A stretch of DNA of 64,000 bases from Ignavibacteria bacterium (GTDB lineage: Bacteria; Bacteroidota; Ignavibacteria; Tepidaquicellales; OLB5): assembly GCA_020852705.1 (NCBI GenBank), contig JADZAP010000029.1, positions 1 through 64,000 of the forward strand. Reading direction: 5' to 3'. Positions 21,358-41,714 of this stretch are shown piece by piece. The position numbers and the translations under genes are program-made. The notes beneath the pieces were generated by a model. It ran no database searches and was not told the origin of the DNA. It saw only the letters and a list, made by a program, of their open reading frames with translations. The number at the start of each line of letters is the position of its first letter. The first letter of the stretch is position 1.

Positions 21358-22020
21358 CTATGAATTTTTTCCAACTGCAATTAATGATTTATTTAAAAAA
21401 ATAAATCTTTCCTTCAAAATTTTGCAATCTTTAAAATAAGATTTTAACTCGCCTGCTGTTAATAATCTGTTGCATTCAAGCAGTTCATCAGCTTCTTTTT
21501 TATTCCCGCATTTTTTAAACCACCCCATATTAAAATGTGTAAGCATATAAATTTTTAACCATTTTGGCAAAAACTGAAAACAGGGGAATAAAAAATGCGG
21601 CTCAAAAGGAAAGTAATAATTTGGTGTCTGTATAAAATACATTTTACTTACCCTAACCGCTTCTTCAGACATCTTTCTGCGCATTGAACTATCTTTTATA
21701 TGCTCTATCACTGAATTTGAAAATACTACGTCAAAACTATTATCACTAAATTGGCTAAGGTTACAGGCATCTCCTTTTATAAATCTTAAATTATTTTTTT
21801 GCGGAAATTCAGGTTCGGTAATATTTATTATTGTAATTAAATATTCATTTGTCTCAGCTAAACCAACATTGTGCCAGTAATTTTCAGTCCCCCCTAGATC
21901 TAGAATTTTTACAGGTAAGGTAACATCTTTTATAAATTCTTTAAACAATCTGTGTCTCTTTTTTCTGAATTTATTTGCCAGAGACCCGGCTTTGGTATTA
22001 TCTAATAATTTTTTAAACAA
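21358..22020 (-). CDS. Class I SAM-dependent methyltransferase
   Basis: 220 residues with a Rossmann-type methyltransferase core: motif I ILDLGGTENYW (39-49), an acidic end of strand 2 (NITEPE), GDACNL, then FDVVFSNSVIEHI (motif IV/post-IV typical of Methyltransf_11). The later TPNYYFPFEPHFLFP segment is common in small-molecule and sugar methyltransferases of polysaccharide loci. It is the last gene of the 21358-38156 minus-strand cluster, 6 nt after its neighbour. The acceptor is unknown; a sugar or lipid-linked glycan is likely. Confidence 0.85.
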   Translation of the reverse strand: MFKKLLDNTKAGSLANKFRKKRHRLFKEFIKDVTLPVKILDLGGTENYWHNVGLAETNEYLITIINITEPEFPQKNNLRFIKGDACNLSQFSDNSFDVVFSNSVIEHIKDSSMRRKMSEEAVRVSKMYFIQTPNYYFPFEPHFLFPCFQFLPKWLKIYMLTHFNMGWFKKCGNKKEADELLECNRLLTAGELKSYFKDCKILKERFIFLNKSLIAVGKNS

Positions 22021-22026
22021 AATTAT

Positions 22027-24726
22027 TTATTTCAATACTACCATTTTCTTAACTGCAGAATATTTACCTGACGTTAATCTGTAAAAATAAAGCCCGCTTG
22101 CCAAATCCCCGGCATCCCAGTTAATGCTGTATTTACCTGCTTTTAAATACTCATTTACCGGAATTCCTGCTATTCTTCCTGTAACATCAAATATCTCTAG
22201 CTTAACATTCCCTTCGGCTTCTGCTGAAATATCAAATTTTATTGTGGTTACTGGATTAAACGGATTTGGAAAATTTTCATACAATTCAAATTTATCCGGA
22301 ATTACACTGCCAATCGGTTCAATTCCAATTACCTGTGTTGTAAAATGCCATGTAACTGACCAAGGTCCAAATCCTCCTGTATTAAATCCGCGAACTCGCC
22401 AAAAATATAATGAACTGCCCGTTAGCAAACCTGGTTTTACAGTTAAATTTGAATTTGTTACTGTTGTATCATGCAGTGTTGTATTAAAAAGTGAATCTGT
22501 TGAAATAATTACTTTATATCCCGTAGTTCCAAATACATCATTCCAGTCAAGTGTTAATGTTAACGGCTGATTTACAGCACCGTTTGGCGGTGCAAGCAGT
22601 GTAGGTGCTGCAACAGGCGGTGATATTACTGTACGGAATTTCCACACTTGGCTATATGGACCTTCTCCCGCATTATTTGTTGCTTTAACCCTCCAGAAAT
22701 ATACAGTATTATTAGAAAGTGTTCCGCCCGGTACATTATATTGCGAAAAAACCAACCCCGCTGCATTTATTAATGTTGTGGAAAATGTTGAGTCTGTTGA
22801 AAGCTGCAATTTAAATGTTTCAGCATATTGTACTGAATCCCAATCCAATGTTGGAGTTGTTGATATTTCAACTGAATTATTTGGCGGATAAACCAATTGC
22901 GGAGCTGCAGGGGGTATTAATAGTGTTGTAAAACTAAACGGCTCAGCCCAAGGTCCTGTTCCAATTGGATTAGTTGTTCTAACTCTCCAATAGTAAGTCT
23001 GAACATTTGTAAGTAAACCCGCTCTTACTTGTACTTGAGAAATATTGAATCCCGTTGTATCCCATAATACATTGTTAAACGTTGAATCCTGCGAAACCTG
23101 AACTTGATAATTAGTTGCACTTATATCTTCAACCCAATCTAACACCGGAGTTAAGCTTATCCCTGTTGCATAATCCGGTGGTGTAAGCAGTGTTGGTGCT
23201 GCCGGCATACCAAGTACTGTAGTAAAATTAAATTTTACTGACCACAACCCTGTACCTGCAATGTTTGTTGCGTTTACACGCCAGTAATATCTTAGATTAT
23301 TGCTCAGCGGGGGAGAGTTCAAATTTAAAAATGAATGCGTAATCCCTGAAATAAATATCTCGGGATTACTGAATGATGTATCAAGCGCTGCCTGAAGTGT
23401 GTATGAATCTGCCGGTGAAGTACTATCCCAGTCAAAAAATGGTGTTAATGAAACATTGCTTGCTCCATTTACAGGCAGTAACAACCCTGGAGCGTTTGGA
23501 ATTGCAACAATTGTCCTGAAATTGAAACTTGCAGACCAATTGCCTTCTCCGCCGGCATTTGAACACCTTACACGCCAGTAATAACGTGTATTATTTTGAA
23601 GTATGTTTGCAGGTATCGTAATACTTGTTGGAATAATTAAAGCTGAATCAAGAACAGGTGAACTATAAGTTGAATCTTCATCAACTTGAATATGGTATGT
23701 TTTACCATAAGTAACGCTGTCCCAATCAAGCAGGGGAGTAATGCTAACATTAACAGCACCATTAAGCGGTGCTGTTAAAACTGGAGCTGCCGGAATCGGA
23801 AATCCTCCGGTTGTAGTTTTTAATATAGTTCCGTTAGTACCCGCTGCAAAACCCGTTTGTACATTCAGAAAAAAAACTGAATTAAAATTTTGCCCTGATG
23901 TTCCGGTTGGCTGTGTAATCCAGGTTGTACCTCCATCAGTTGTCCTGATTATATTATTCCCGTGTGAACAGGCGGTACCGGTATTTGCATTTAAAAAACT
24001 TAAACTGGTAATTAATCCGGTAATTCCTGAGTTTAACTGAATCCAGTTTGTGCCATAGTTTGATGATTTTATAATAATACCCGGATCACCTGAAGCAAAA
24101 ACAATGTTGCCCGAACATGATAAACCGAATAATAAATCAGAAGTACCTGTGTTCAAAATGTTCCAAGTATTACCTCCGTCAACGGTTTTTAAAACAGTTC
24201 CATTTTCCCCGGTTATAAATCCTGTGTTATTATCAGAAAATTTTATATTGTATAAAAATACGTTTACTCCGCTTGGAACTGCAATCCAATTTGTACCGCT
24301 ATTTGTTGTTTTTGAAATTATGCCGCTGCTTCCGCAAAATAAACCTGTATTTGCATTGAAAAAAAATATACCCCTGTAAAGACTTGCCGGAGGGGATTGC
24401 AGCATCCAATTTAAACCTCCGTCTGAACTTCGGTATAGTACTCCATTACCTGCTGCAAAACCCGTATTTGCGTCTGTAAAAAATATGGCATAAAAATGAT
24501 TTGAACCGGCACTTTCTGATACCCAATTTGAACCGGAATTTGTGGTCTTATATATCTTGCCGTTTAATCCTGCAACCCAGCCCGTATTTTGATCAATAAA
24601 ATATACACTGTTCAGGTATTCCGTAATCCCTGTATTAAGCGGAACCCACTGTGCTAACGTTGAATTAAAATGATATTGAAATATTAAAAATAAAATTGTT
24701 ACTGTTATTTTTAATGATCTGTTCAT
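22027..24726 (-). CDS. T9SS-exported protein with YCF48/BNR-type propeller and five FN3-like domains
   Basis: 899 residues. Signal peptide ~1-25. Residues ~27-330 carry seven YCF48-like repeats (NSVYFIDQNTGWVAG...KTTNSGSNW type), which suggests a seven-bladed beta propeller. Five ~95-residue FN3-like modules follow, each opening with a P.AP.L..P..G pattern and containing YYWRV. The C-terminus is a T9SS type A sorting domain (YENFPNPFNPVT ... KMVVLK). Probably a cell-surface binding protein. It sits 5 nt downstream of the C25 peptidase gene, so the two are co-transcribed and may be functionally linked. Confidence 0.9.
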   Translation of the reverse strand: MNRSLKITVTILFLIFQYHFNSTLAQWVPLNTGITEYLNSVYFIDQNTGWVAGLNGKIYKTTNSGSNWVSESAGSNHFYAIFFTDANTGFAAGNGVLYRSSDGGLNWMLQSPPASLYRGIFFFNANTGLFCGSSGIISKTTNSGTNWIAVPSGVNVFLYNIKFSDNNTGFITGENGTVLKTVDGGNTWNILNTGTSDLLFGLSCSGNIVFASGDPGIIIKSSNYGTNWIQLNSGITGLITSLSFLNANTGTACSHGNNIIRTTDGGTTWITQPTGTSGQNFNSVFFLNVQTGFAAGTNGTILKTTTGGFPIPAAPVLTAPLNGAVNVSITPLLDWDSVTYGKTYHIQVDEDSTYSSPVLDSALIIPTSITIPANILQNNTRYYWRVRCSNAGGEGNWSASFNFRTIVAIPNAPGLLLPVNGASNVSLTPFFDWDSTSPADSYTLQAALDTSFSNPEIFISGITHSFLNLNSPPLSNNLRYYWRVNATNIAGTGLWSVKFNFTTVLGMPAAPTLLTPPDYATGISLTPVLDWVEDISATNYQVQVSQDSTFNNVLWDTTGFNISQVQVRAGLLTNVQTYYWRVRTTNPIGTGPWAEPFSFTTLLIPPAAPQLVYPPNNSVEISTTPTLDWDSVQYAETFKLQLSTDSTFSTTLINAAGLVFSQYNVPGGTLSNNTVYFWRVKATNNAGEGPYSQVWKFRTVISPPVAAPTLLAPPNGAVNQPLTLTLDWNDVFGTTGYKVIISTDSLFNTTLHDTTVTNSNLTVKPGLLTGSSLYFWRVRGFNTGGFGPWSVTWHFTTQVIGIEPIGSVIPDKFELYENFPNPFNPVTTIKFDISAEAEGNVKLEIFDVTGRIAGIPVNEYLKAGKYSINWDAGDLASGLYFYRLTSGKYSAVKKMVVLK

Positions 24727-24731
24727 TTAAT

Positions 24732-27700
24732 TTACTTTAAAATTGCAAGTTTCTGAATAGATGTCTCTGTCTTTCCCATTCCTTCAAGTATCAGTTTATA
24801 TAAATAAATGCCGTTTGCCATAGTTTCACCATCTCCATCTTTGCCATCCCAGTATATCTGATTGAACCCAACAACTGCCGGTGCTTTAACTTCACGAATT
24901 AACCTGCCGGCTACTGTATATATTTTAATTGTACATGATTGAGGCGGTTCAGGCGAAAACAGATCAAAAGTAAAATATGTTTCACCCTGCATCGGATTTG
25001 GATAGTTAAAAAGATTTCTGACTGCAAAATCATAGCTTATATAAATATTATTTAATAATGTATCTTTGTGGTCATTTTTATCAGTCCCAAAATATTTTAA
25101 CTGATGCAATCCTGCAGGTAATTCCGGTTTATATGTTACAAGTGTTTTAAGTGTCCCGTCATTCAGCGGATTAAAATTAAGCTCTGGATTTGGAGTTCCG
25201 TTTAAAGTATAATAAATCCTTCTTTCATCTAATTTTATGTATATTCCTGTTGTATCTGTAATGCTGTATTGCTGCGGTGAGTCATCATAAAACCTGAAAA
25301 GTATTTCCGGCTTTGCCTGTATTATATCACCATCAAGTATCTTTATGCCATTATAAGTTACATCAATTGCCGGACCGGTTGAGTCACCAAGTATTACAAT
25401 ATCTGTAAATGCAAAATTATTGAACGGATAGTAATCATTCTGATTATTCAGCATTGATACTTCAAAGTTTATGTCTAATGTATCAGCCCTCGTTTGAGGA
25501 TTCTTTAAACCTTGTGTATTAAATGTTACTGTTGATAAATAACTGCTATCTACCCCAAGAAGTGTGTAAATTGTATCAGTCCTTAAATTTACAAGCCCGT
25601 TGTAGGCATTGGCTGTCCATTTATATACTACTGTTCCTGCCGGTACAAATCCAACATTATAATTTTTTACACTTATGTTTATTTCCGTACCTTCATCAAC
25701 TATAGAATCACTGCGAACAAATGAATAATTATCGGGAATAATTTCTGCAGGCGGTGTATATTTAAAAAATAACGATCTGAATTCCGGTGACTCTAACCCC
25801 GAAAGCGTATCTATTTCAATTGTAGCTTTTAGTTTAAGTTCTGGATATATAAAACTTGAAATTGTATCAAGGTTTGTAAATGTGTTTGTTTGCAGCCCTG
25901 AATAAAGTGTTACATTTTGACCTGTATATGTTATACCTGTTACATCAAAGTTTACTGATGAACCTCCCGGTAATATTCTGTTCCATGAAAAGTATTTCCA
26001 TCTGTGTGCAGGACCTAGTGAAAAATTTATTGTTCCGTGTGTACTTAAAAATACCGGGGTACGGTTTGCAAATGATGGCTCCCAGTTTGAATTTGAGCTA
26101 TACCTGTGAAATTGTTCTGAAACATCCTGATTTTGTGCATTCAAATATCCGATAAATGCGTAACTGTCAAACTGATCAAACCTTGTTACTGAATCTATCA
26201 ACACACTGCCAAATTGACGCATCTTATTTTTAGCTGTTTGTCTTAAGCTGTCTGATACTGATACATAAGAAGCAATTCCTGCCATTATGTAGTGTGTTGT
26301 ATCAAATGTGTTCAGAAATGATAATACTGAATCTGATGATTGCGGTGTTGACATTCTGAAATTTCTGAACTCTACCAAACCGCCTGTCAGCTTCCTTAGT
26401 TTTACTATATTCAGTCCGGTGTTTTGACCCGCATCTGCATATAATGTATATTGATTAATTATAAAATATGATGCTTCACTTCCGTTGCTTCCGTATGATT
26501 TAACCTCAAGTGTCCCTTCCTCATTATTTAGCTTAAATCCTGAACCTGTATAATATAGCCCGCTGTAAGTATTTTGAGGAAATTGCCCCGAAAGTCTTGG
26601 ATACAATACAACAATGGAATCATTATCTATTGAACGTGCAAATGTTGATGCTATAAATGGATTATATACAAATTTCATCGTTTCAGACCATCCCGTGCTG
26701 TCATTATTTATTATGGAGTTCGTTCTCCAGTAATAAACAATATTGGTATCAGGAAACGGTACTCTGTATTTTACTTTTGTTGTAACTCCGCTTACTGAAC
26801 CTGTTGAATAATTAAGTAATGGTGCAGTAAAATTACTGTTTGTATCAATCTGCAATACCAGCTTTACATTGTTTTGCAAAAGATTTACCTGCGGATTTAA
26901 TCCTGTAAATTCAACCGAGTCACTTTTTATTACTGAATTATTTATTGGCTTTAGCGGTGTATATGAAATGTTCCTGAGCGGAAGAGGAATAGTTAGTATA
27001 TTGTTTGATGGGTCTTCATTGGAGAATTGATTATTTGGATCAAGTGATGCTTTTAATGTATAATTACCAATTGTATCAATACTAAATGTATATGAAAGGG
27101 TATCATATATTTTAAAATCAGAAATTAACGTATCTTTTGTTCTGAAATTTATTCCGTTTTTAATAATTTCAAATCTTACCTGACAATTTTGTACATATAA
27201 ACCGTAATTCTTAGGAAAAATTTTCCAGGTTACTGTTTCACCAATAAGCGGATATTGATTTGTTATTCTGTAGTCAGTTTGCCCAATCACAAATTCCGGA
27301 CCAGTTGGAAGCATTAACCTGCTTGCCGGGTCACCCAAAAGCATATAACTATTTATCATGTTACGAACCTGAAAATTTGAGGTATCCTGAAGCATGTTAT
27401 TAAATGCATTTTGCACCAATGACCCTAATCTTCTAAGTGTATCCTGTGAAAATCCCTGGAATATTTGTTTGTTTATTTGATTTCCAGCCCCGCTGAAGCT
27501 CCACCCTGTTGTACCTAAAAACCCCAATGCACCGCGGCCGGGTGCAAGTATAAATTTTTCACCAAAACTCCTCTGATTTACTTCTGAATTTTTACCTGTA
27601 AAACATGTCATACTTAGTACAAATGGCAATTTACTGCCGTTATTTAAAATATAAGGGTCTTCTAAACCAAGTTCCCAGTTTTGGCTTGCTGCATGTCCTA

Positions 27701-29594
27701 TAAAATTTACTATCAAACCTCCTCGGTTAATTGCATTCTTTATTGAGTCTGAATAATTAAAAGTAATAAATCCTGCTGAATCATTTCTGTATATTTTTTC
27801 AGATAAACCTGAAACCGGCTGAGGTGAAATATAGCTGTTAATTAATTCATTTGACTGCGTTTGATATTGTATCTGCTCTATTCTGTTTGGACCGCCTGTT
27901 ATCATATTAAAATTCTTCCACCAGCTTTGTGGCGGTTCGTTTTCATACTCCATTATCTTATTTACTACATCCTGTGCCTCCTGTTGTGTGTAAACCGGAA
28001 GTCTTCCTGTTGCTATTTGATGCCAATATGAAAAATTATTCTGTATAAAATTCACAAAATATCCGTCAGTTGGGGGATTGCCGTAAACCGGTATAAGATT
28101 TTTATAAAGATTCTGTGAATTCTTGTTGTTTTTAGGGTCAAGCGAACCTCTTCCCATCAGCAAAACATAAGATGGTTTTGGCTGCTGCCAATTATCATAA
28201 GCATTCTTTAGGAAATTTTTAATCCCTTCCGGAGTTTCCATTCCGTAACTGAATATATCTGTTATATCTTCTGATTTTACTTTTACTGCTCTAAAGTTAT
28301 CTCTGCTTGCCCTAAATTGCCTTAATTGTTCTGCTTGTGAATCAAATAAGCTATTATAAATTATTATATAATCTGCAGAACCATTTACAAGTCCCGGTAC
28401 CTGCCTTGCTGAATATCTGTATGGAAGGTTTGAAATTTGTTTGTTATAGATTTCAAAATTACCGTTCTTTTTGCCTGTAAAAAATAAAGTGTCTCCGTTT
28501 GAACTGATATTGGTTATCTTTATTTTATTTTTTATATCATAAATACTAATGGGCTGAGTGGAATTATAACCGCTAATTTTAAACTTTGCTGAAGTTGTAT
28601 CCTGTGAATTTAATTTGATACTGCAATATGAATTATTGAAAATAAATTTTTTTGGATATGAAACTTCTATCAGATCAAAATACAGACTTGGTGTTGCATT
28701 TGGGTTGCCAAACGTGGGAGAATATGTTACAGAAACTGTGTTTTGTCCGGTATTAAGCAAATTACTTTGAAAACTTACTGTTGTATCAAACCTGTTGTAA
28801 TCATCTTTTTGTAATGTTGAAATTCCGGTTGAATTAACACTTAATATAATTCTATGCTCATTATAACTTGTATCTTTTGAATTTGGAAATGCAAATACCC
28901 TGAATGTACATTGTTCTGTTTGAGGACTTAATAATGGAAGCTGAAATGTTCCTGTTACCGTGTAACCATACTGCGGTGTAAGGTTTTTCCAAAACCAGCC
29001 TTCGCCTGATATTTTTTCATTGTTAAAATACCTGAAATCTGTATTTGGATTTAATGTCATTCCCGGAGAATACAGCGAATCATATTCAATGTGTATTTTT
29101 TCAAATGAATAATTTTCACTGTATTCATTTACGGCTGAATATGAAGAAAGATTATATCTTAACCCGTTGCTTCCGTCCCAGCCAATCCAGTAAACGCTTG
29201 TATCTGAGTAAAGATTGAAATATTCATCCGTTGTATAATCTATTGCAATTGGTCCAAAACTTGCCTGATATGTGTTTGTAATCCCGCCATAATTTCTTGT
29301 TCCGTAGAAATCAATATAATCATTTGCATCAAATGAACCATCTTGCTCGCCTTCAAAATAAATTGGGAATTCAATTCCTTTAAAATATATTTTAACTGTT
29401 CTGGGGTCAATATTAGAAGTGTTGATGCCTGAGGTGATAAACTCATTTCTGCTTATCCTGTAAATGCCGTCATTTACAATATACATTTTAAGGTAAATTT
29501 TATTTGGAACTATCCAGTTGAAATTCTGGCTCTTTAGTGAAAAACTAAGTGTAAATAAAACAAATGTAATTATGCTTAATTTCACGGCATTCAT
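24732..29594 (-). CDS. C25 (gingipain-family) cysteine peptidase, PorU-like, with sorting domain
   Basis: 1620 residues, signal peptide 1-22. The C25 peptidase domain spans ~405-770: GRGSLDP, WHQIATGRLPV, catalytic His634 in FIGHAASQNW and Cys664 in LSMTCFTGKN. Large Ig-like regions follow, then a C-terminal sorting-type domain (FNYPNPMQGETYFTFDL ... QKLAILK). The T9SS sortase PorU is a C25 peptidase that removes the sorting domain of cargo and links cargo to anionic LPS; this protein is a candidate PorU or a paralogous secreted protease. It is longer than the P. gingivalis enzyme. Its ATG overlaps the stop of the upstream WecG/TagA gene (ATGA, 29591-29594), so expression is coupled to glycan synthesis. 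Confidence 0.87.
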   Translation of the reverse strand: MNAVKLSIITFVLFTLSFSLKSQNFNWIVPNKIYLKMYIVNDGIYRISRNEFITSGINTSNIDPRTVKIYFKGIEFPIYFEGEQDGSFDANDYIDFYGTRNYGGITNTYQASFGPIAIDYTTDEYFNLYSDTSVYWIGWDGSNGLRYNLSSYSAVNEYSENYSFEKIHIEYDSLYSPGMTLNPNTDFRYFNNEKISGEGWFWKNLTPQYGYTVTGTFQLPLLSPQTEQCTFRVFAFPNSKDTSYNEHRIILSVNSTGISTLQKDDYNRFDTTVSFQSNLLNTGQNTVSVTYSPTFGNPNATPSLYFDLIEVSYPKKFIFNNSYCSIKLNSQDTTSAKFKISGYNSTQPISIYDIKNKIKITNISSNGDTLFFTGKKNGNFEIYNKQISNLPYRYSARQVPGLVNGSADYIIIYNSLFDSQAEQLRQFRASRDNFRAVKVKSEDITDIFSYGMETPEGIKNFLKNAYDNWQQPKPSYVLLMGRGSLDPKNNKNSQNLYKNLIPVYGNPPTDGYFVNFIQNNFSYWHQIATGRLPVYTQQEAQDVVNKIMEYENEPPQSWWKNFNMITGGPNRIEQIQYQTQSNELINSYISPQPVSGLSEKIYRNDSAGFITFNYSDSIKNAINRGGLIVNFIGHAASQNWELGLEDPYILNNGSKLPFVLSMTCFTGKNSEVNQRSFGEKFILAPGRGALGFLGTTGWSFSGAGNQINKQIFQGFSQDTLRRLGSLVQNAFNNMLQDTSNFQVRNMINSYMLLGDPASRLMLPTGPEFVIGQTDYRITNQYPLIGETVTWKIFPKNYGLYVQNCQVRFEIIKNGINFRTKDTLISDFKIYDTLSYTFSIDTIGNYTLKASLDPNNQFSNEDPSNNILTIPLPLRNISYTPLKPINNSVIKSDSVEFTGLNPQVNLLQNNVKLVLQIDTNSNFTAPLLNYSTGSVSGVTTKVKYRVPFPDTNIVYYWRTNSIINNDSTGWSETMKFVYNPFIASTFARSIDNDSIVVLYPRLSGQFPQNTYSGLYYTGSGFKLNNEEGTLEVKSYGSNGSEASYFIINQYTLYADAGQNTGLNIVKLRKLTGGLVEFRNFRMSTPQSSDSVLSFLNTFDTTHYIMAGIASYVSVSDSLRQTAKNKMRQFGSVLIDSVTRFDQFDSYAFIGYLNAQNQDVSEQFHRYSSNSNWEPSFANRTPVFLSTHGTINFSLGPAHRWKYFSWNRILPGGSSVNFDVTGITYTGQNVTLYSGLQTNTFTNLDTISSFIYPELKLKATIEIDTLSGLESPEFRSLFFKYTPPAEIIPDNYSFVRSDSIVDEGTEINISVKNYNVGFVPAGTVVYKWTANAYNGLVNLRTDTIYTLLGVDSSYLSTVTFNTQGLKNPQTRADTLDINFEVSMLNNQNDYYPFNNFAFTDIVILGDSTGPAIDVTYNGIKILDGDIIQAKPEILFRFYDDSPQQYSITDTTGIYIKLDERRIYYTLNGTPNPELNFNPLNDGTLKTLVTYKPELPAGLHQLKYFGTDKNDHKDTLLNNIYISYDFAVRNLFNYPNPMQGETYFTFDLFSPEPPQSCTIKIYTVAGRLIREVKAPAVVGFNQIYWDGKDGDGETMANGIYLYKLILEGMGKTETSIQKLAILK

Positions 29595-30328
29595 CTTGCC
29601 AAAATACGCATTTTTAATTTAATAATTCTATATATAAATAAGGGGTTTCCAATAATATACCTGTTAAAATACTTTAAGGGATTTTTTATTAATCTGTAAA
29701 ACCATTCAAAACCAAATTTTCTTAAAAATTCAGGACCTCTGTGTTTTGTCCCTGCAAATACTTTTATCCCTTCTCCAACGGTTAATATAACATTGCAATT
29801 TATCTTCAAATAATTTTCATATACCCATTGTTCCTGCTTTGGTGTTCCCAGCCCTATAATAAGAATTTCAGCTTTAGATTTATCTATTTCTTGTATTACT
29901 TCATCAGTTTCAAATCCAAACCCGGTAAATGTGCCTGAAATATTTAATCCCGCATTTTGCGTATTTACGCTGTTTAATGTATCACTATCATGTCCAAAGA
30001 AAAATAAACTATAATTATTTTTCCTGCATTCATTAATTAATAACGGGTAAAAATCTGATCCAGTAAATCTGTTTTTTAATGTGCTCTTTCCAAACAGAAT
30101 ATTTGAAGCAAATTTAATACCTATGCCATCCGGGTGATTTATATGGCTAACAGCAAGATATTCTGCAAGATGCTTATCCTTATATGAAATATTAATAGTA
30201 TTTGCATTTACATAATTTATTATGATCTTTTTGTTATCTTTTATTGATCTTTTAATTTCAAAAATAAGTTCATCGTAATTGATTGTATTAATTAAAATAC
30301 CATTTATATTTATTTTTTTATAACTCAA
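29591..30328 (-). CDS. WecG/TagA/CpsF-family glycosyltransferase
   Basis: 245 residues. The family transfers N-acetylmannosamine (or its uronic acid) to lipid-linked GlcNAc. Conserved marks are HPDGIGI (69-75 region), RFTGSDF, LGTPKQEQW and VGEGIKVFAG, with the C-terminal GFEWFYRLIKNP helix that binds the membrane. Normal length. It overlaps the following C25 peptidase gene by 4 nt and follows a GT4 gene by 1 nt. Likely adds the second sugar of the surface polysaccharide repeat. Confidence 0.93.
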   Translation of the reverse strand: MSYKKININGILINTINYDELIFEIKRSIKDNKKIIINYVNANTINISYKDKHLAEYLAVSHINHPDGIGIKFASNILFGKSTLKNRFTGSDFYPLLINECRKNNYSLFFFGHDSDTLNSVNTQNAGLNISGTFTGFGFETDEVIQEIDKSKAEILIIGLGTPKQEQWVYENYLKINCNVILTVGEGIKVFAGTKHRGPEFLRKFGFEWFYRLIKNPLKYFNRYIIGNPLFIYRIIKLKMRILAR

Positions 30329-30329
30329 A

Positions 30330-31427
30330 TCAATCAGCAGTGCTAAACTTCTTTGATTGTATTAATTGTTTGTATAAACCATCAATTTTTGGTATAATAC
30401 ACTCCTGTGTATAATTACTGATAACATCACGGTATAGATTTGCTGAGCATTTCTCAGCTAATTTATTGCTGCTTTTATAAAGAATTATTTTTTTTGCCAG
30501 CTCAATTTCATTGCCCGATTCAAATAAAAGCCCGTTTAAACCATCTTTAATTAACTCGCCTATCCCGTCAACATTAGCACCAATAAACGGCACCCTGTGC
30601 AGCCCTGCCTGAAGCATAAAATTAGGAAAAGGATCACGGGAAGATGGTAAAACGCAGATATCTGCCGTTAAAAAGTATTTTAACAATTTTTTCTGCGGTT
30701 CTATTATTTCTGCGTTAAGCTTGTTTTTTGAAATGTATCTCCGGTAATTTATTTCATTTTTGCCTTCGCCAATCATCAGCAGAGTAATCTGTTCATTCTT
30801 CAAAATTTTTAAAGCTCTTAAAAGGGTCTCGAAATCTTTATCCTTATGAAATCTGCCTATTGCCAGAATAATAAATGGATTTCTTTTTTTACCTTTTCGG
30901 GAAAAGTTCATTTTTGTTTTCTTAAGCTCATCTGTATCTGTAAAATTATGTATAAGAGATATTTTATTTTGAGGGATATTGAATTTATCTCTCAGCATTT
31001 TAACTATCGAATTACTTACCGCTATTATCCTGTCTGATTTATATTCAATATTATATTTCCTTTTAACAATGCTTAACGAAGTAAAAACTGTAGCAGGTTT
31101 ATTATGTTTTATTCTTAAAATGGCTCTTATACTCAGCATTTCAGGCAAACGGTGGTGATTATGTATTATATCTATCTTGTTTTCTGCAATAAATTTCCTT
31201 AACTTTTTTATGTTGCCCGCAATTGAAATAGGGTTCTTGGATTTTAAATTTTTGATTATAGTGCAGGGTATTCTGCATTCTTCAAGCCGTTCAATGGAAT
31301 CACCCCCGTTTGTTATTACAAACACACGGTGTTGTTTGTTTTGATATTTACATAATAAATTAACATAATAACTTCTGCCGCAGGCATAATTAAAATCAGG
31401 TGTTATATGCAGTATATTTAATTTCAT
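30330..31427 (-). CDS. Glycosyltransferase family 4 (GT-B fold)
   Basis: 365 residues. N-terminal acceptor domain with NILHITPDF and HNHHRLPEML; C-terminal nucleotide-sugar domain with ILAIGRFHKDKDFETLLRAL and the acidic/glycine pattern LPSSRDPFPNFMLQAG...GIGELIKDGLNGLLF, diagnostic for GT4 retaining enzymes. Cytoplasmic, peripheral at the inner membrane. Sugar specificity is unknown. Part of the tightly spaced polysaccharide operon. Confidence 0.92.
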   Translation of the reverse strand: MKLNILHITPDFNYACGRSYYVNLLCKYQNKQHRVFVITNGGDSIERLEECRIPCTIIKNLKSKNPISIAGNIKKLRKFIAENKIDIIHNHHRLPEMLSIRAILRIKHNKPATVFTSLSIVKRKYNIEYKSDRIIAVSNSIVKMLRDKFNIPQNKISLIHNFTDTDELKKTKMNFSRKGKKRNPFIILAIGRFHKDKDFETLLRALKILKNEQITLLMIGEGKNEINYRRYISKNKLNAEIIEPQKKLLKYFLTADICVLPSSRDPFPNFMLQAGLHRVPFIGANVDGIGELIKDGLNGLLFESGNEIELAKKIILYKSSNKLAEKCSANLYRDVISNYTQECIIPKIDGLYKQLIQSKKFSTAD

Positions 31428-31450
31428 TCCCTCCTGTGAATTTATTTTAC

Positions 31451-33091
31451 TCAGTATATCTTCTTAAATCCAAGTCCATCAGCTGCAAAGCACTCAACAT
31501 TACTGTTCAAGATTTTCAATGTCAATTTTATAGGTTTATCCACAATATTAAATTCCGTGAACTCAACTGATATATCTTTATTTTTAAAACCTGTCCTTAT
31601 TCTCTCCGGATTATATCCTTCTATGTAAAAAAACTGCTGCGGTGCTTTTGTCTTTATCTCAAATTCATCCGATGAAATATTTTTTATTTCAAATCCGGCT
31701 CCTATAGAACTTTCCTGAAATGCGGCACTTTGTATTACATCATTTATTGTATCTTTTATTATAAACTCACGTTCCTTCCAGTAATTATAAGCACCTGTCA
31801 TTTTATCAAACATAAATGTTTGTTTATATCTGCCCGGATTCCCAATTATTATTAATTTCTTATCTCTATCCCTTTTTGTATTTATCAGATTATTTACATT
31901 TTCAATTGATTTATTATAAGATGTTACCCAGTCTGTAACTGCTGTTCCTGTCCAGAATATCCAAAATGCCAATGCAAGGGCAAAGCTTACTTTGAATATA
32001 TTTTTTTTCATATTCAAACTTTCATTGATTTGCTTGCTGTAAATATATAAAATGAAAATATTGATTATTGTAAATGGCAGCAGTATCATTTGTGGTCTTA
32101 TATAACCCACAATTGCATAGGGAGTAATTAATACAAAAAAGAAAGAGGTTAACTGCCAAAGTATCTTATATACATCAGATCTTATTGCTGACCAAAACAA
32201 ATAAAACAGCGATCCGTACAAAATTAAAAGATATAGAAATATCAGCTTATTATTATTTCTTAACTGAAAGTTTAATGTTATAAAATCAAGCGGAATTGAT
32301 AATGCAATCAATGCCCTTGCATATACACCCGGCGCATTAGATAAAGGAAAACTTTGGTATAGAGTTGTAATTTCTGCTGCATTATTTCCCAATATCGAAA
32401 TTCTAAAAACAAAATACGCTGCAACTATTATAAAAAAAGTTATTAATAAGGGATAAGTTTTTTTTATCCCCTGCTTACCGTTTCTGTATAACTCAAATAA
32501 AAATATTACTACCGGAAATGTTATTGCCAGCTCTTTGGTAAATAATGACATAAGGAAACTAAATAGTGATAATATTAAAAATATCCATTTGCCTGAATCA
32601 CTGTAAAGCAGAAAAAGCAGGATTGCTGTTACATAAAAAAATGCGCAAATTAAGTCAACTCTTGCTGCCATCCAGCAAATATTGTTTACATTATTGGGAT
32701 AAAGCAAAATTGCCGTTAAACAAACCAAAGATACTGAAGCTTTCTTGGTTAAATAATATACCGTTAAACCTGCTGTAAAGGATAAGAATATTAACATCAT
32801 TAAATTTTGTATTCTAAACCACACAAAATTATCATACCCCAGCCCCAAAAACTGATTTATTGTTATACTTTTTTCTAATGATAAATAATAAAAAGGTCTT
32901 ATATGAAAGGCATTTGTAAAAGGAAGACTGCCGGTTATTTTTTGATAAAATGTGGAGTTAATTGCATCATACAAATTAAGGTAATCATCTGATAAAAGTC
33001 CTATATTAAAAAATCCAAGAAAATATATTATTGCCGAGTAAACTGCAAATATTCCTAAGGAATAATAGATAAATTTACGGGATTCTTTCAA
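31451..33091 (-). CDS. Polytopic membrane protein, GT-C-type glycosyltransferase-like
   Basis: 546 residues with about eleven membrane segments in the first ~400 residues and a soluble, probably periplasmic C-terminal domain (~400-546). Asp35-Asp36 in the first external loop (LLSDDYLNLYD) match the DD/DE motif of GT-C enzymes that use polyprenyl-phosphate sugars, and TKELAITFP resembles the loop of GT39/TMTC-like proteins. It could add a side sugar in the periplasm; a polymerase role (Wzy) is less likely but possible because no other Wzy candidate is present. Confidence 0.7.
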   Translation of the reverse strand: MKESRKFIYYSLGIFAVYSAIIYFLGFFNIGLLSDDYLNLYDAINSTFYQKITGSLPFTNAFHIRPFYYLSLEKSITINQFLGLGYDNFVWFRIQNLMMLIFLSFTAGLTVYYLTKKASVSLVCLTAILLYPNNVNNICWMAARVDLICAFFYVTAILLFLLYSDSGKWIFLILSLFSFLMSLFTKELAITFPVVIFLFELYRNGKQGIKKTYPLLITFFIIVAAYFVFRISILGNNAAEITTLYQSFPLSNAPGVYARALIALSIPLDFITLNFQLRNNNKLIFLYLLILYGSLFYLFWSAIRSDVYKILWQLTSFFFVLITPYAIVGYIRPQMILLPFTIINIFILYIYSKQINESLNMKKNIFKVSFALALAFWIFWTGTAVTDWVTSYNKSIENVNNLINTKRDRDKKLIIIGNPGRYKQTFMFDKMTGAYNYWKEREFIIKDTINDVIQSAAFQESSIGAGFEIKNISSDEFEIKTKAPQQFFYIEGYNPERIRTGFKNKDISVEFTEFNIVDKPIKLTLKILNSNVECFAADGLGFKKIY

Positions 33092-33103
33092 TTTATATAC
33101 TTG

Positions 33104-34057
33104 TTAATTTTTTAACAGCCCTAAAAGCTCCTTTTTATATCTGCTTTTATTCTCAATTATAGCTTTTATCCTGTATTTAAAATGTGAATTTATAAACTTA
33201 ATGAAATATTTATCAGGTAAAAACGTAGTACAATATGCAGTAAAATTCTTTAATGATTTTGAATTTTTTAAATAACCCCTTGCCAGCTTCCTGCTGCCAT
33301 AAAAGTAATTAAGCCACGCTGTAACCTGTGCCCAATAAAAATGATCTCCCTTTGACTTTGATTCTATCATTTTCTTAAATGCTGAAGTGCTAAGCATTTC
33401 AAATAATCTATCACTGCTTCCTGTGTTTGTTCTGGAATCTTTTCTGAGACGCGTATAAACTAAAAATTCAGGTATAATTGCAATCCTGTATTTCTCCCGC
33501 AATCTGTACATTAATTCAAAATCTTCGTAAGCATCAAATGATTCATCGTATTTGCTCTCTGCTAAAATGCTTTTTCTTATTAGTAGTGAGGATTGATTTA
33601 TCGGATTATGCAGATCCAGATATTTATTTATTTTATTATGATAAATTGGCTCTCTTAACAAAAATAACACCTTTGCCGGATCTTTAAAATAAACTGACCA
33701 TGATGAAAGTATATCAACTTCCGGATTTTCTTCAATATATTTTATCTGCCTCTCTAATCTGTTGACTGTATTCAGGTCATCTGAATCAATTCGGGCAATC
33801 CATTCATACCTGCATAATCCCGCACCGTAATTTAGAGCTGCAGATGTTCCTTGGTGTTCGGTAAAATAGTATCTTATTCTGTTATCCTGAATTTTTTTAA
33901 TTATATTTTCTGTATTATCCGTTGAGCCGTCATTTATTATTAATAATTCAAAATTTCTAAAGCTTTGTTTAAGAATGCTTCTGATAGAGCTTTCTATGTA
34001 TTTGCTGCAGTTGTAAGCAGGCATTAATACAGAAATATTTTCTATTTTCTTCTGCAT
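33104..34057 (-). CDS. Glycosyltransferase family 2 (GT-A fold)
   Basis: 317 residues. ISVLMPAYNCSKYI at the N-terminus, DGSTDNT (nucleotide binding) and the metal-binding ARIDSDDLN are the standard GT2 signatures; the catalytic-base region follows near DEDFELMYRLREKY-like EDFELMYR. Inverting transferase adding a sugar to a lipid-linked acceptor. The 3' end of the upstream GT4 gene overlaps its start by 16 nt, showing co-expression. Confidence 0.94.
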   Translation of the reverse strand: MQKKIENISVLMPAYNCSKYIESSIRSILKQSFRNFELLIINDGSTDNTENIIKKIQDNRIRYYFTEHQGTSAALNYGAGLCRYEWIARIDSDDLNTVNRLERQIKYIEENPEVDILSSWSVYFKDPAKVLFLLREPIYHNKINKYLDLHNPINQSSLLIRKSILAESKYDESFDAYEDFELMYRLREKYRIAIIPEFLVYTRLRKDSRTNTGSSDRLFEMLSTSAFKKMIESKSKGDHFYWAQVTAWLNYFYGSRKLARGYLKNSKSLKNFTAYCTTFLPDKYFIKFINSHFKYRIKAIIENKSRYKKELLGLLKN

Positions 34058-35112
34058 TTTCCGTAAAGCTCAATATGTTTAACTCTCATTTGCTCAATTG
34101 AAAACTCTTGCTTTGTGAAATCATAAAGTTTTTTTGAAAGGGATATATATTGATTATAATTATATATTGAATCTTCCAACAGACCGCATAATTTTTCAGA
34201 ACTGTTATAGCTGTATATCAAACCGTTCAAACCGTGCTTTATTACATCTTCTGCTCCTTCAAAATCAGATGTAATTACCAATGTGTTTGTTGCACCTGCT
34301 TCTGTAATTATTGCCGGGAAACCTTCATAACCCCTGATTGATGAATTTACAAGTATATTGGTATGCTTTAGTGTTTCATAAATATCATTTATTCGTTCGT
34401 TTATTATAACCTTGCTGCCAAGTGAACTGTTAAGTGCTGTTAAGCTTTCTTTAAGTTCACCTTCGCCGGCAAGATGAAATTCAGCAATATTAAATACATC
34501 TCCGGGCAGCTTATTAACTGCATGTATATATATATCCAGCCCTTTGCTTTGTATAAATCTTGATGCGGCTAAAATTTTCAGCTTTCCGTTATTTGGCTTA
34601 TCGGGCATTGGTTCTGTTATCGGAATTCCGCATCTGATAAAATGTATTCTGCTTTCATCTGCTATTTTTTTGCTTAAAATATGCCTTTTAATATGTTCGC
34701 TAATCGCAACATAATAATCAGCATTAAAATGTTTCAGCCTGCCCATTTGCGGTAAAATTCCGTGATTGGTCTGTATAGTTGGTCTGCCGGTTAATTTTGC
34801 TGCTTTAGCAGCAATTGCTGCCCCGTAATGATAATGTGAATGGATTATTTCTATACTGTTTTCTCTTGTAAAACGTGTTAAAAAATTTATTGCTTTTATC
34901 ATTGTTGTAAAAGACCTGTTTGCATGCAAAAATCTTTCATCTGAAACTATATTTACATCAATTCCGCTGAATCTGTTAATACCGTTACCGCCTCCGCATA
35001 TTATCCATAACTTTACTTTCCCTTCCTGCGTTAGTGAGCGTGATAAATGCAGAAGATGATTTGTAACGCCGCATGTATATCTTAATTCATTGGCAAGTAG
35101 TAATACATTCAT
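34042..35112 (-). CDS. Glycosyltransferase family 4
   Basis: 356 residues. GT-B enzyme: LLANELRYTCGVTNHL glycine-rich start, HSHYHYGAAIAAKAAK, then LKILAASRFIQSKGLDIYI and EGFPAIITEAGATN...GLNGLIY, the GT4 donor-binding signature. The N-terminal motif is close in style to the GT4 at 30330, suggesting related acceptors. It overlaps the GT2 gene downstream by 16 nt. Confidence 0.92.
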   Translation of the reverse strand: MNVLLLANELRYTCGVTNHLLHLSRSLTQEGKVKLWIICGGGNGINRFSGIDVNIVSDERFLHANRSFTTMIKAINFLTRFTRENSIEIIHSHYHYGAAIAAKAAKLTGRPTIQTNHGILPQMGRLKHFNADYYVAISEHIKRHILSKKIADESRIHFIRCGIPITEPMPDKPNNGKLKILAASRFIQSKGLDIYIHAVNKLPGDVFNIAEFHLAGEGELKESLTALNSSLGSKVIINERINDIYETLKHTNILVNSSIRGYEGFPAIITEAGATNTLVITSDFEGAEDVIKHGLNGLIYSYNSSEKLCGLLEDSIYNYNQYISLSKKLYDFTKQEFSIEQMRVKHIELYGKCRRK

Positions 35113-35122
35113 TTTTCTTGCT

Positions 35123-36229
35123 TTAGTATAAATTTTTGTACAATGAATAAATATTTTGCCAGTTTAAATTTTGTGCAGCCAAAATTGCATTTCTGGATAA
35201 TTTACTCAACTTATTACTGTCTGATTTAATTAGCTTTGTTAATATCTCAGTAAGTTTATCGGGTTTGCTATAACTGAATACATAACCATTTACATCTTCT
35301 GTTAACATTGAAGATATTCCGGTTTCTTCAGTTACTACAGGTATAAGCCCACCAGCCATAGCTTCTGCTGTGCTTATTGAAAAAGTATCATACTCATTTA
35401 GCGATAAAAATATATCTTTATCTTTGTAAAATTCAGCAAGTTCAATTGTTTCCATCGGAGAAATAATGTTAATCTGTTCAATAATGCTTTTTTGCAGTTT
35501 TATTTCTTCTGATGTTATTAAATATATTTCTATATTTTCAACTTTGCCGGAAAGTATATTGAGAATTAATTCAAAACCAGAGCGGTTCAGTGAATTCTTA
35601 TACATCATAACTGCTTTTAAGATACTGTTCGTTCCTTTTTTTTTGCCTGAATTAAAAAAAACACTCTCAACTCCGCCCGGAATAACTTTGATCTTATCTG
35701 CTCCTATTTTATAATATCTCTTTACAATTTCAATTGCTTGTTCTGATGGGAATATAACTACATCAGAGTATTTTAGATAAATATTTTCGCATACCCTGTC
35801 TTTAAAAGCTGTAAATCCCTTTGCTAATTTTAAATAATTATTCTCAAATAAAATTATTCCGTGTGAATTGTATATTATTTTTACTTTAAAAAATACTTTA
35901 TATAAAAAAAATAATATTCCGTATCTTTCAAACGTTGTTAAATGAATAACTGCAGGTTTAAAGTTTCTGAGGCAGGGGATAATCCTAAAAATTCCAAGTG
36001 TGAGTATAATTCCGTTTTCGGTTTGATTTATTTTATAACCAAATAATTTTTGCCATAATGAATGTTCCCTTCCGTCAAAAAAATATTGTATAAATATACC
36101 TTTATGCTCTTTACAATAATTGCTAAAAAGATTTTGAGCAGCATTTTGCGGACCTGATAGTATCTTTTCTGCTGTATATCTTCCGCCAAAAACAACAACT
36201 TCATTAATATTTATTTCTCTTCTTCTCAA
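35123..36229 (-). CDS. Glycosyltransferase family 4
   Basis: 368 residues. GT-B fold with VVFGGRYTAEKILSGPQNAA at the start, IIYNSHGIILFENN, FPSEQAIEIVKRYY and the C-terminal LNEYDTFSISTAEAMAGGLIP acidic signature with GYVFSY. Donor sugar unknown. Its start overlaps the upstream methyltransferase gene by 26 nt, so the two are translated from one transcript. Confidence 0.9.
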   Translation of the reverse strand: MRRREININEVVVFGGRYTAEKILSGPQNAAQNLFSNYCKEHKGIFIQYFFDGREHSLWQKLFGYKINQTENGIILTLGIFRIIPCLRNFKPAVIHLTTFERYGILFFLYKVFFKVKIIYNSHGIILFENNYLKLAKGFTAFKDRVCENIYLKYSDVVIFPSEQAIEIVKRYYKIGADKIKVIPGGVESVFFNSGKKKGTNSILKAVMMYKNSLNRSGFELILNILSGKVENIEIYLITSEEIKLQKSIIEQINIISPMETIELAEFYKDKDIFLSLNEYDTFSISTAEAMAGGLIPVVTEETGISSMLTEDVNGYVFSYSKPDKLTEILTKLIKSDSNKLSKLSRNAILAAQNLNWQNIYSLYKNLY

Positions 36230-36875
36230 TTTTTTCTATCATTTTCTTCATACCCAATCTGTGTTTAAGAAAATTTTTTAATCTGAAATATTTACCGAAT
36301 TTATTGGTGAATTTTATCTTTTCTTTTGAAAGCAGTATTACACTGTACTCACGGTTTATGTTATCGTAAAATGTTTTTATTTTACTATGTCTAAATTTTG
36401 TAAAATCATTATTATACCAAATACTCTTATGTGCTTCATGCGGATTTTCTTCTGTTCCTTCCTGTGCCCAATATTTTCCAATCGGAATATTAATTAGTGC
36501 AACTTTCCCTTTTTCAATTGCAAGATTAATAAGCTCTTCTCCCTCACGTTTTGTAAAATGTTCAATTACATCACCTAAATTTATAAGGTCATATTTTCCT
36601 GAATAACTGCGTAAATAATCCAGTGCATTATCTATTATAATGTTGCTATAAAAAAATTTGTGGTAGTCTTTTATGTAACCCGGAAATATCTCAACACCAT
36701 CAATAACACGTTCCCAATTACCATTATACTTTGAACCCTCCCAGATTTCTAAAAATTCTCTGAATAAAATACCCCACCTGCCAAAACCAACACCAATATC
36801 AAGTATGCTTTTAGGATCAATCTTCCTGATAAGCTCAATATTGTATGATATATTCTGCCAGTTTGATGTACCCAT
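36204..36875 (-). CDS. Class I SAM-dependent methyltransferase-like protein
   Basis: 223 residues. Motif I is SILDIGVGFGRWG (23-35); motif II-like GVEIFPGY and motif IV-like YDLINLGDVIEHF follow. The C-terminus is strongly basic (HRLGMKKMIEKIEKKR), perhaps contacting membrane or nucleic acid. In a polysaccharide locus an O-methylation or chain-capping role is reasonable. It follows the flippase gene by 6 nt and overlaps the GT4 gene by 26 nt. Confidence 0.82.
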   Translation of the reverse strand: MGTSNWQNISYNIELIRKIDPKSILDIGVGFGRWGILFREFLEIWEGSKYNGNWERVIDGVEIFPGYIKDYHKFFYSNIIIDNALDYLRSYSGKYDLINLGDVIEHFTKREGEELINLAIEKGKVALINIPIGKYWAQEGTEENPHEAHKSIWYNNDFTKFRHSKIKTFYDNINREYSVILLSKEKIKFTNKFGKYFRLKNFLKHRLGMKKMIEKIEKKRNKY

Positions 36876-36881
36876 TGTGTT

Positions 36882-38156
36882 TTAATTACCTGCTTTTACC
36901 GGTTTAATGTTTAAATTATTCAATATCATTTTAAGATAGTACCATTCAGCTGTGAAAATAAATATTTCTGTTATTACTGTAAGAATTGCTGAAGCAGTTA
37001 TGCCAAATCGGGGTAATAGATATAGATTCAGCAGTACATTCATTATTAATGCATAAAGCGTAATATACATCACAATTTTAAAGTATCCCATACCGTTTAA
37101 AATAATGCCTGTAAGGTTATTTAATCCCATTGCAATTATTCCGGCTGAAAGTATTCTTAATATTATTACAGAATTTTCAAATTTACCGGTATATATTATA
37201 TTTATAATTTGCTCCGCAAATATAAATAAAATTATTGTACTTAAAATGCTTATCGCTAATATTGGTTTATAATGTTCATTATAAAATACCCGTATTTGTT
37301 CAGTATCTCTGCCAATAAATGCTATTCGGGTGAACCCGCTTACAAGCAGAAATGAATATAACAATGAGCTTGATTTAAACAACCCGTAGGCTGCGTTATA
37401 AAATGCAGTTTCATCATAGCTTCGCATTTTTGCTATTAACAGTAAATCAATTTTATCATAAAGAAGATTAAATACAACCGCCAATCCAAGCACAAATGAT
37501 ACAGAAATAATTTTTCTGATACCTGCAATGCTGAAATAAAATAAACTAAGTCTTATCCCGTTTCTGTATAGGAAAAATAAAGATACTGTTATTTGCAGAA
37601 TCGTTCCCGCTAATAATACTGCAAAAAAATCATTTAGAGTGAATGAGAAATAAATAAAACCTGCTCCAAAAATTAAAAGTGTTAATATGTGTGTTGACGA
37701 AAAGGAAATAAATTGTTCTCTGTATTTGTTAATTCCAGAAAGTGCTTTATTAACAATGGCAGCTAAAAATGCACTGTACATAAATAATGTAATTAGCAAA
37801 AATAACCTGTACGATATTTCAGGGTAAACAAGTAATACAGTTAAACTTCCTGCGGCTAAATATAGAATTACTATCAGGCTTGCAATAAAAAATATTCTGC
37901 TAAATATTTCAGATGCTCTTTCTCTCTTAATTGCGATTTCCCTCTGTAAATATATCGGCAGCCCAAAATCAAAAACTGAAATGAAAACAATACTCAGTGC
38001 AATTAATGTAACTATCTGTCCAAATACACCTGTCGGATAATTTCTTGCTAAAAGTACAATAATTATAAAAAAGAAAATCTTATCGCTTAAATTAAGCAGG
38101 AAAATATATTTACTGCCTGCAAGAAGTTTTAAATATTTTTTGATTTTATCTGCCAA
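36882..38156 (-). CDS. Wzx-like polysaccharide flippase
   Basis: 424 residues with 12 or more membrane segments and the family-style charged N-terminus KYLKLLAGSKYIFLLNLSDKI, followed by LPIYLQREIAIKR. Such MOP-superfamily proteins move undecaprenyl-linked repeat units across the inner membrane. It is the first gene of the locus that runs down to 21358, which supports a Wzx/Wzy-type pathway. No Wzy polymerase or initiating transferase (WbaP/WecA) is in the window. Confidence 0.88.
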   Translation of the reverse strand: MADKIKKYLKLLAGSKYIFLLNLSDKIFFFIIIVLLARNYPTGVFGQIVTLIALSIVFISVFDFGLPIYLQREIAIKRERASEIFSRIFFIASLIVILYLAAGSLTVLLVYPEISYRLFLLITLFMYSAFLAAIVNKALSGINKYREQFISFSSTHILTLLIFGAGFIYFSFTLNDFFAVLLAGTILQITVSLFFLYRNGIRLSLFYFSIAGIRKIISVSFVLGLAVVFNLLYDKIDLLLIAKMRSYDETAFYNAAYGLFKSSSLLYSFLLVSGFTRIAFIGRDTEQIRVFYNEHYKPILAISILSTIILFIFAEQIINIIYTGKFENSVIILRILSAGIIAMGLNNLTGIILNGMGYFKIVMYITLYALIMNVLLNLYLLPRFGITASAILTVITEIFIFTAEWYYLKMILNNLNIKPVKAGN

Positions 38157-38226: not shown

Positions 38227-39102
38227 TTAATCTTTCTTTTCGTAAGGAATCCCGTCTGCAGCAGGTGGTGTGGCTTTGCCAATAAATCCTGCAAGTACAA
38301 TTATAGTCAGCAAATAAGGCAGCATTTGTATGAATTGTGTTGGCACTCCGCTGGACTGAAATTGCAAAGTAAAACTTTCAGCCAGCCCAAAAAGTAAACA
38401 GGCTAAAGCTGCACCTGTTGGCTTCCATTTACCTATTATCATAGCTGCAAGTGCAATATACCCGCGACCTGCTGACATACCGTCCGTAAAACTATGCTGG
38501 TCAAGTGCAAGCCATGCCCCTCCCAAACCTGCTAATGCTCCGCTTATAATTACCCCCATATACCTCATTTTGCTAACGCTGATCCCAAGTGAATCTGCCG
38601 CTTCAGGGTTTTGGCCAACTGCCTTTAATCTTAAACCAAATTTCGTCCGGTTTATTGCAAACACAGTGATAATTAATATTAATACACAAATAAGCAAAAA
38701 CGGATTGAAAGGAAGTCCCCATGATTCCAATCCAATTACTCTGGGTGAATTGCTTGAACTTCCAAAAATTAATTTACAGAAAAATTTTGTTATACCAAAA
38801 GCAAATATATTTAATGCTATCCCTGAAACTATCTGATTAGCTTTAAATGTGATTGTAATTAATCCGTGTAAAATTGAAACAATTATCCCGGCTAACAAAC
38901 TGCAAACTATACCAGTCAGAACGCTTCCTGTATAATAAATACCTATTATTGCTGCAAATGCTCCGCTTAACAGCATTCCTTCAAGGGCAATGTTTACAAC
39001 TCCGCCTTTTTCGGAATAAACTGCACCTAATGATGGCAGTAAATAGGGGATAGATATCCGGAATGTCTGTAATACAAAGGCAGCAGTTAATATTTCCTGC
39101 AT
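38227..39102 (-). CDS. BMP-type (nucleoside) ABC transporter permease 2
   Basis: 291 residues, ~8-9 membrane segments. PSLGAVYSEKGGVVNIALEGMLLSGAF is the hallmark N-terminus of the smaller permease of BMP/YufQ-type transporters (GxxxSExxGxxNIGxEG). It follows permease 1 by 2 nt. With permease 1, the double ATPase and the BMP lipoprotein it forms a nucleoside uptake system. Confidence 0.93.
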   Translation of the reverse strand: MQEILTAAFVLQTFRISIPYLLPSLGAVYSEKGGVVNIALEGMLLSGAFAAIIGIYYTGSVLTGIVCSLLAGIIVSILHGLITITFKANQIVSGIALNIFAFGITKFFCKLIFGSSSNSPRVIGLESWGLPFNPFLLICVLILIITVFAINRTKFGLRLKAVGQNPEAADSLGISVSKMRYMGVIISGALAGLGGAWLALDQHSFTDGMSAGRGYIALAAMIIGKWKPTGAALACLLFGLAESFTLQFQSSGVPTQFIQMLPYLLTIIVLAGFIGKATPPAADGIPYEKKD

Positions 39103-39104
39103 AA

Positions 39105-41665: not shown

Positions 41666-41714
41666 AAGGTAATTATATAGAATAATTTTAATTTTTCAAA
41701 TTGCAATATTACAT

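Follow-up and report, generated by a model that had tools for sequence, protein, structure and literature searches.

In P. gingivalis, the type IX secretion system (T9SS) sortase PorU cleaves the C-terminal sorting domain (CTD) from cargo and transfers the cargo C-terminus to an amine of the linking sugar of A-LPS (PMC10202324, PMC13086638), a sugar that varies between species (PMC11969387). PorZ is a glycan-binding surface protein of the same type of system that keeps its own CTD (PMC8545088). Chemical work was needed to find the acceptor glycan of the P. gingivalis sortase. A second protein model, NF052324, carries the name 'putative type IX secretion system sortase PorU2'. In a search of the open-access literature, we found no description of a locus that combines a PorU2-type C25 peptidase with a WecG glycosyltransferase. 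Here we describe such a locus in a stretch of 64,000 nucleotides (hereafter the window) from an Ignavibacteria bacterium (contig JADZAP010000029.1, positions 1 to 64,000).

Layout of the locus

Eleven genes on the minus strand (21358-38156) formed a compact run in which a flippase, glycosyltransferases and methyltransferases surround a C25 peptidase, much as an earlier note on this DNA had described. Intergenic gaps ranged from about -26 to +23 nt, with as much as 70 nt ahead of the flippase gene, and the order along the minus strand was flippase, methyltransferase, GT4, GT4, GT2, GT-C, GT4, WecG, C25, YCF48/FN3, methyltransferase. The 1620-aa peptidase gene and its ATGA overlap with the WecG stop, both reported in that note, were borne out by the junction sequence: minus-strand positions 29594-29591 read ggcaagATGAatgcc, so that the C25 and WecG reading frames share 4 nt, from the ATG start of the one to the TGA stop of the other. 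The features of the run are as follows:

36882-38156, minus strand: Wzx-type flippase
36204-36875, minus strand: 223-aa protein with a weak methyltransferase match, conserved across linked loci
35123-36229, minus strand: GT4 glycosyltransferase
34042-35112, minus strand: GT4 glycosyltransferase
33104-34057, minus strand: GT2 glycosyltransferase
31451-33091, minus strand: 546-aa membrane protein without family match, GT-C-like according to the earlier note
30330-31427, minus strand: GT4 glycosyltransferase
29591-30328, minus strand: WecG/TagA/CpsF glycosyltransferase (PF03808, E 2e-41), with the 4-nt ATGA overlap with the C25 gene
24732-29594, minus strand: PorU2-type C25 peptidase, 1620 aa, with ATG start, signal peptide and C-terminal T9SS-type domain
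27315-28370, minus strand: Peptidase_C25 domain, residues 409-760 (E 2e-72)
27693-27695, minus strand: His634 codon
27603-27605, minus strand: Cys664 codon
26043-26522, minus strand: FAM3/ILEI domain with POMGnT1 stem fold, residues ~1025-1184 (PF15711 at 1060-1151; 5ggf, Z 19.7)
24735-25385, minus strand: PorU-like C-terminal part, residues ~1404-1620, with a PorZ-like CTD at its end (6za2, 5m11)
22027-24726, minus strand: YCF48 propeller/FN3 protein with a type A sorting domain, likely cargo
21358-22020, minus strand: methyltransferase

The WecG protein matched PF03808 over the full domain (positions 3-168) at 142 bits against a gathering cut-off of 27.4, the start of its reading frame (TTG at 30328) being a mechanical call only. 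Its gene is present in a single copy in the genome and is therefore a clean target for removal. A structure model of the 546-aa membrane protein, which had only 6 close relatives, reached a pLDDT of 50 and was unusable. A scan for promoters and terminators returned the same counts as shuffled sequence and so gives no operon evidence. The run contained neither an O-antigen ligase nor an initiating enzyme; candidates for both lie elsewhere in the genome, with all matches to PF02397, PF00953 and PF04932 on other contigs. Within the run, to which this search was confined, no genes for an amine-bearing linking sugar (Wbp/Vim) were recognised. Upstream of the flippase, positions 38227-42728 hold what looks like an ordinary nucleoside-type importer, made up of a pair of permeases with an ABC ATPase and a binding protein of PnrA-like type; a divergent 5'-nucleotidase gene occupies 43581-45119.

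The C25 protein beside PorU and PorU2

The genome (2.94 Mb, 98% complete) was searched family by family with profiles and encodes two C25 proteins, of which the window's is not the PorU that the earlier note had taken it to resemble. The other, at C40, scored 924 bits against the PorU model NF033707 (cut-off 420), and porV starts 40 nt after its gene, followed by an M6-like T9SS protein. The window C25 scored 345 bits against the same model, below the cut-off, and no PorV-family gene lies beside it in the window. Its best NCBIfam match was to PorU2 (NF052324) at 387 bits, again below the cut-off, here 450; among 119 genomes of the class none passed it. A quick maximum-likelihood tree of 91 C25 catalytic regions, with midpoint rooting, placed the 20 porV-adjacent PorU proteins together on one side of a branch (support 100), with the window C25 outside it and grouped with the C25 proteins of WecG loci and PorU2 members of other classes in the phylum (support 99). 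Model scores, tree and porV context thus rule out PorU, and we call the window C25 PorU2-type, neither a PorU nor a curated PorU2 member. None of 40 regions selected with the PorU2 model had PorV next door, compared to 21 of 21 PorU regions searched with the same profile. A PorV2-like gene at C49 fell below its cut-off, and PorV2 as a partner was uninformative, since best NF052325 matches occurred in most genomes with or without PorU2 and none was above cut-off. A third kind of C25, sister to PorU in the tree, was seen in families f8 and f16 (L082:9868-14772 and L083:5174-10000); that of L083 is followed by a 339-aa PorV-family-like protein (L083:4153-5172), and PorV2-model matches adjoin third-kind C25s in other genomes of these two families.

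The catalytic dyad, His634 and Cys664, was invariant in all 25 WecG-locus C25 proteins. The only solved structure matched by the sequence of the window C25 was P. gingivalis PorU (E 7e-15), the likeness extending to its C-terminus, which is of T9SS type with a FlgD-Ig-like (FlgD_ig) domain: residues ~1404-1620 matched PorU over its C-terminal part, and the final 100 residues matched the PorZ CTD (6za2, 5m11). Between the catalytic part and the C-terminus lies a further domain, absent from PorU. Its family, PF15711 (FAM3/ILEI), was found in 23 of 25 WecG-locus C25s and 7 of 16 PorU2 proteins of other classes, compared to 0 of 21 PorU, while Propeptide_C25 was found in 7/25 WecG-locus C25s versus 18/21 PorU. 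A model of this domain in the window protein superposed on the human POMGnT1 stem (5ggf) with Z 19.7 and 2.4 A over 150 residues, and matches to the POMGnT1 stem/FAM3 family in general lay at Z 17-20. The POMGnT1 stem domain and FAM3C bind GlcNAc, POMGnT1 through contacts R129, D179 and R207 (PMC9802357). In an alignment read by eye, these three residues were not kept in the window copy or its close relatives, and matching motifs were clear in members of families f4, f10 and f17; L060 is one relative that retains them. The modelled fold in the window C25 is like that of a known sugar-binding module, though sugar binding does not follow from fold.

Linkage of WecG and C25 across the class

Using profiles built from the window genes, we annotated and compared two sets: 13 related loci found in public genomes, whose records carry the title Ignavibacteria wherever a name is given, and 40 regions taken from whole genomes in the class. 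The 40 regions were picked by good PorU2-model scores, and are thus a non-random set that includes a few C25s of other kinds (L082, L083). The gene order of the window was repeated, up to the contig ends, in metagenome-assembled genomes whose C25 is 66-74% identical, and the WecG-C25 pair was still present at ~45% C25 identity. The 11-gene order, which the window's family retains in full wherever contigs are long enough, is beyond chance. In seven families besides the window's, C25 lies beside WecG or a few genes from it, with varying sets of GT4, GT2 and flippase genes. WecG was present in 23 of the 40 C25 regions compared to 0 of 21 PorU regions. Across the 119 genomes of the class, 34 of 67 WecG matches lay within 10 kb of a PorU2-type C25, in 8 families; 27 of them were no further than 1.5 kb away, and 31 of the 34 shared the strand of the C25 gene. 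By our own estimate, which assumes one to a few C25 targets per ~3.5 Mb genome, chance would place a WecG this close in the order of 1-2% of cases. PorU2 members elsewhere in the phylum had no such WecG glycan locus.

Presence of the two genes was also correlated, with WecG in 45/51 genomes that have a PorU2-type C25 and 8/68 that do not (family-stratified test, p 0.0005, including one genome with a partial WecG match), or 9/10 versus 3/11 when counted by family (p 0.0075); the list of PorU2-type C25s was read from a match table by near full-length model coverage, and a few genomes could move. Families f2, f10, f12, f13 and f17 each contain genomes with both genes and genomes with neither, and in f3 both are present and unlinked. 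The ATGA overlap was kept in family f1, to which the window belongs, and was also present in L054 and L057. The order wecG-C25-YCF48/FN3, proposed in the earlier note as the unit to follow in relatives, held in its first two members across 8 families, whereas the YCF48/FN3 gene adjoins C25 in f1 only. That note had also set two findings jointly against its idea of a sortase coupled to glycan assembly: a better PorU elsewhere, which exists at C40, and a gene order without conservation, which is not what we found. Conservation of the wecG-C25 linkage in 8 families means that the idea stands in a modified form.

Several arrangements in relatives were seen alongside. L016, L052, L054, L057, L073 and L115 each have a pair of PorU2-type C25 genes, arranged in tandem or at a short distance from each other. 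In f3 (L076:3062-9856, L074, L078, L079), one paralogue of PorU2 type has an overlap with a GT4 gene, in the neighbourhood of an asparagine-synthase-like gene, and a second adjoins a gene like that for DNA polymerase III alpha. The C25 gene at L051:10487-15328 is followed, 20 nt on, by what appears from its sequence to be an ABC-type polysaccharide export permease. In f12 (L061:8496-9167, L069, L071), a T9SS-CTD protein of ~220-245 aa follows C25 with a 4-nt overlap, and a 447-aa protein with a signal peptide and no Pfam match (L062:15350-16693) follows C25 in f10 and f12.

Parts of the glycan locus appear to be exchanged. WecG and C25 distances were weakly correlated overall (r 0.16, p 0.013); outside the window's gene order, where distances are near saturation, class-wide co-inheritance was unsupported (Mantel r 0.09, p 0.2). 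Other glycosyltransferases vary from family to family, so that C25 keeps its place in a glycan locus of WecG type whose contents change.

Proposed function and likeness to known systems

WecG linkage was found in 8 families and in 0 of 21 PorU loci, and the window C25 can be regarded as a sortase homologue genetically tied to glycan assembly. What the earlier note proposed keeps its sortase homologue, with an intact dyad, a T9SS-type C-terminus and an added glycan-binding-module fold, and loses its identity with PorU. We consider the chances about even that this is a locus for a second T9SS sortase, of PorU2 type, and for the enzymes that build its acceptor glycan, each biochemical step (cleavage, glycan structure, cargo attachment) being one we infer from sequence. 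Under this model, WecG, the three GT4 enzymes and the GT2 would act in the cytoplasm, probably with the 546-aa membrane protein, to assemble an oligosaccharide on undecaprenyl lipid, which the flippase would turn outward for carriage, perhaps as LPS, to the outer membrane. The T9SS would export the C25 protein, which would retain its own C-terminal domain as PorU does and grip the glycan by means of its FAM3/POMGnT1-stem-like domain. The Cys/His dyad of the protein would then cut the sorting domain off a subset of cargo, for which the YCF48/FN3 neighbour is a likely candidate in a genome with at least 150 type A sorting domains, and pass the new C-terminus to an amine of the glycan. The correlated presence of WecG and C25, the invariant dyad and the match to PorU in both the catalytic and C-terminal parts support the sortase and acceptor-glycan reading, as do the ATGA overlap and the FAM3/ILEI domain with its POMGnT1-stem fold. 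The reading is weakened by the absence of the POMGnT1 contact residues from the window copy, by the run having no recognised amine-sugar gene, by the unlinked genes of f3 and the PorU2 proteins of the phylum that are without such a locus, by WecG and C25 having no clear co-inheritance outside the window's order, and by the location of initiating-enzyme and ligase candidates elsewhere.

Alternatively, the C25 protein might be a surface protease that processes the YCF48/FN3 protein or the small CTD proteins that adjoin it elsewhere, its FAM3-like domain serving only as an anchor to glycan. Family C25 includes plain proteases, the gingipains, a CTD protein directly follows the C25 gene in f1 and f12, and the window protein falls under both sortase cut-offs, yet its only sequence match among solved structures is PorU, with no gingipain, and it resembles PorU in the catalytic as well as the C-terminal part; we regard this role as unlikely. 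Less likely still is a protein that carries or presents the glycan in the manner of PorZ, or acts in surface glycan assembly, with peptidase activity secondary. PorZ provides the precedent of glycan binding with a retained CTD (PMC8545088) and the FAM3-like domain would suit a binding role, but a dyad invariant in 25 of 25 proteins would be unexpected in a non-catalytic carrier, and the genome encodes a separate PorZ-domain protein (C61:48531). We also considered the YCF48/FN3 protein, with its propeller and CTD, as a PorZ equivalent, and dropped this since it adjoins C25 in f1 only and the PorZ-domain protein is at C61:48531.

The linkage itself might be positional, if C25 occupied a site on the chromosome into which O-antigen-type loci are placed time and again, the two being functionally unrelated. 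For this reading, families vary in WecG itself and in which glycosyltransferases they have, and f10 and f12 share flanking genes; the flanks differ, however, among f1, f2 and other families, C25 sits between glycan genes in L064 and L051, reading frames overlap, and genomes of f2, f10, f12, f13 and f17 lack WecG and C25 jointly. Since the flanks also differ and C25 lies between glycan genes, we interpret the linkage as functional and give a purely positional origin little probability. A broader form of the sortase and acceptor-glycan reading, in which the class has a second T9SS display system made of a glycan-binding PorU2-type sortase, its own subset of cargo and a glycan encoded in the same operon, apart from PorU/PorV/PorZ, with lineages swapping glycan genes and retaining the sortase, is one that we put forward tentatively and with less than even confidence.

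If the model is true, with the sortase and its presumed acceptor glycan encoded together, the specificity of sortase for glycan could be tested from sequence. Several lineages would yield candidate acceptor glycans, and it would become easier to account for bacteria that have at least 150 type A sorting domains and keep two sortase-like enzymes. Should PorU2-type enzymes use other glycans, they might become tools for joining glycans to protein C-termini.

Compared with known systems, the locus shares with the PorU/A-LPS/PorZ attachment complex of P. gingivalis the C25 His/Cys dyad, the PorU-like C-terminal part with its CTD, and a T9SS genome with many type A CTDs. It differs from PorU in its separate clade, in being encoded with a WecG glycan locus instead of porV, in the extra FAM3/POMGnT1-stem-like domain and in the rarer Propeptide_C25. 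PorU2 is its best match and lies on the same side of the tree, with ILEI domains in 7/16 members, but the window protein scores below the PorU2 cut-off, and PorU2 elsewhere in the phylum is often beside a PorV-family gene and outside glycan loci. The added domain has the fold common to the POMGnT1 stem and FAM3, a GlcNAc-binding family, and differs from them in the contact residues, absent from the window copy, and in its fusion to a sortase-like C25 protein. A sorting protease genetically tied to polysaccharide genes is also seen in the exosortase/PEP-CTERM system of exopolysaccharide loci (EpsH; PMC1569441), although exosortase is of an unrelated, membrane-embedded family and works on C-terminal signals of transmembrane type rather than on the CTDs of the T9SS. 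If our model is right, the C25 protein and its locus would work by analogy as PorU does with A-LPS.
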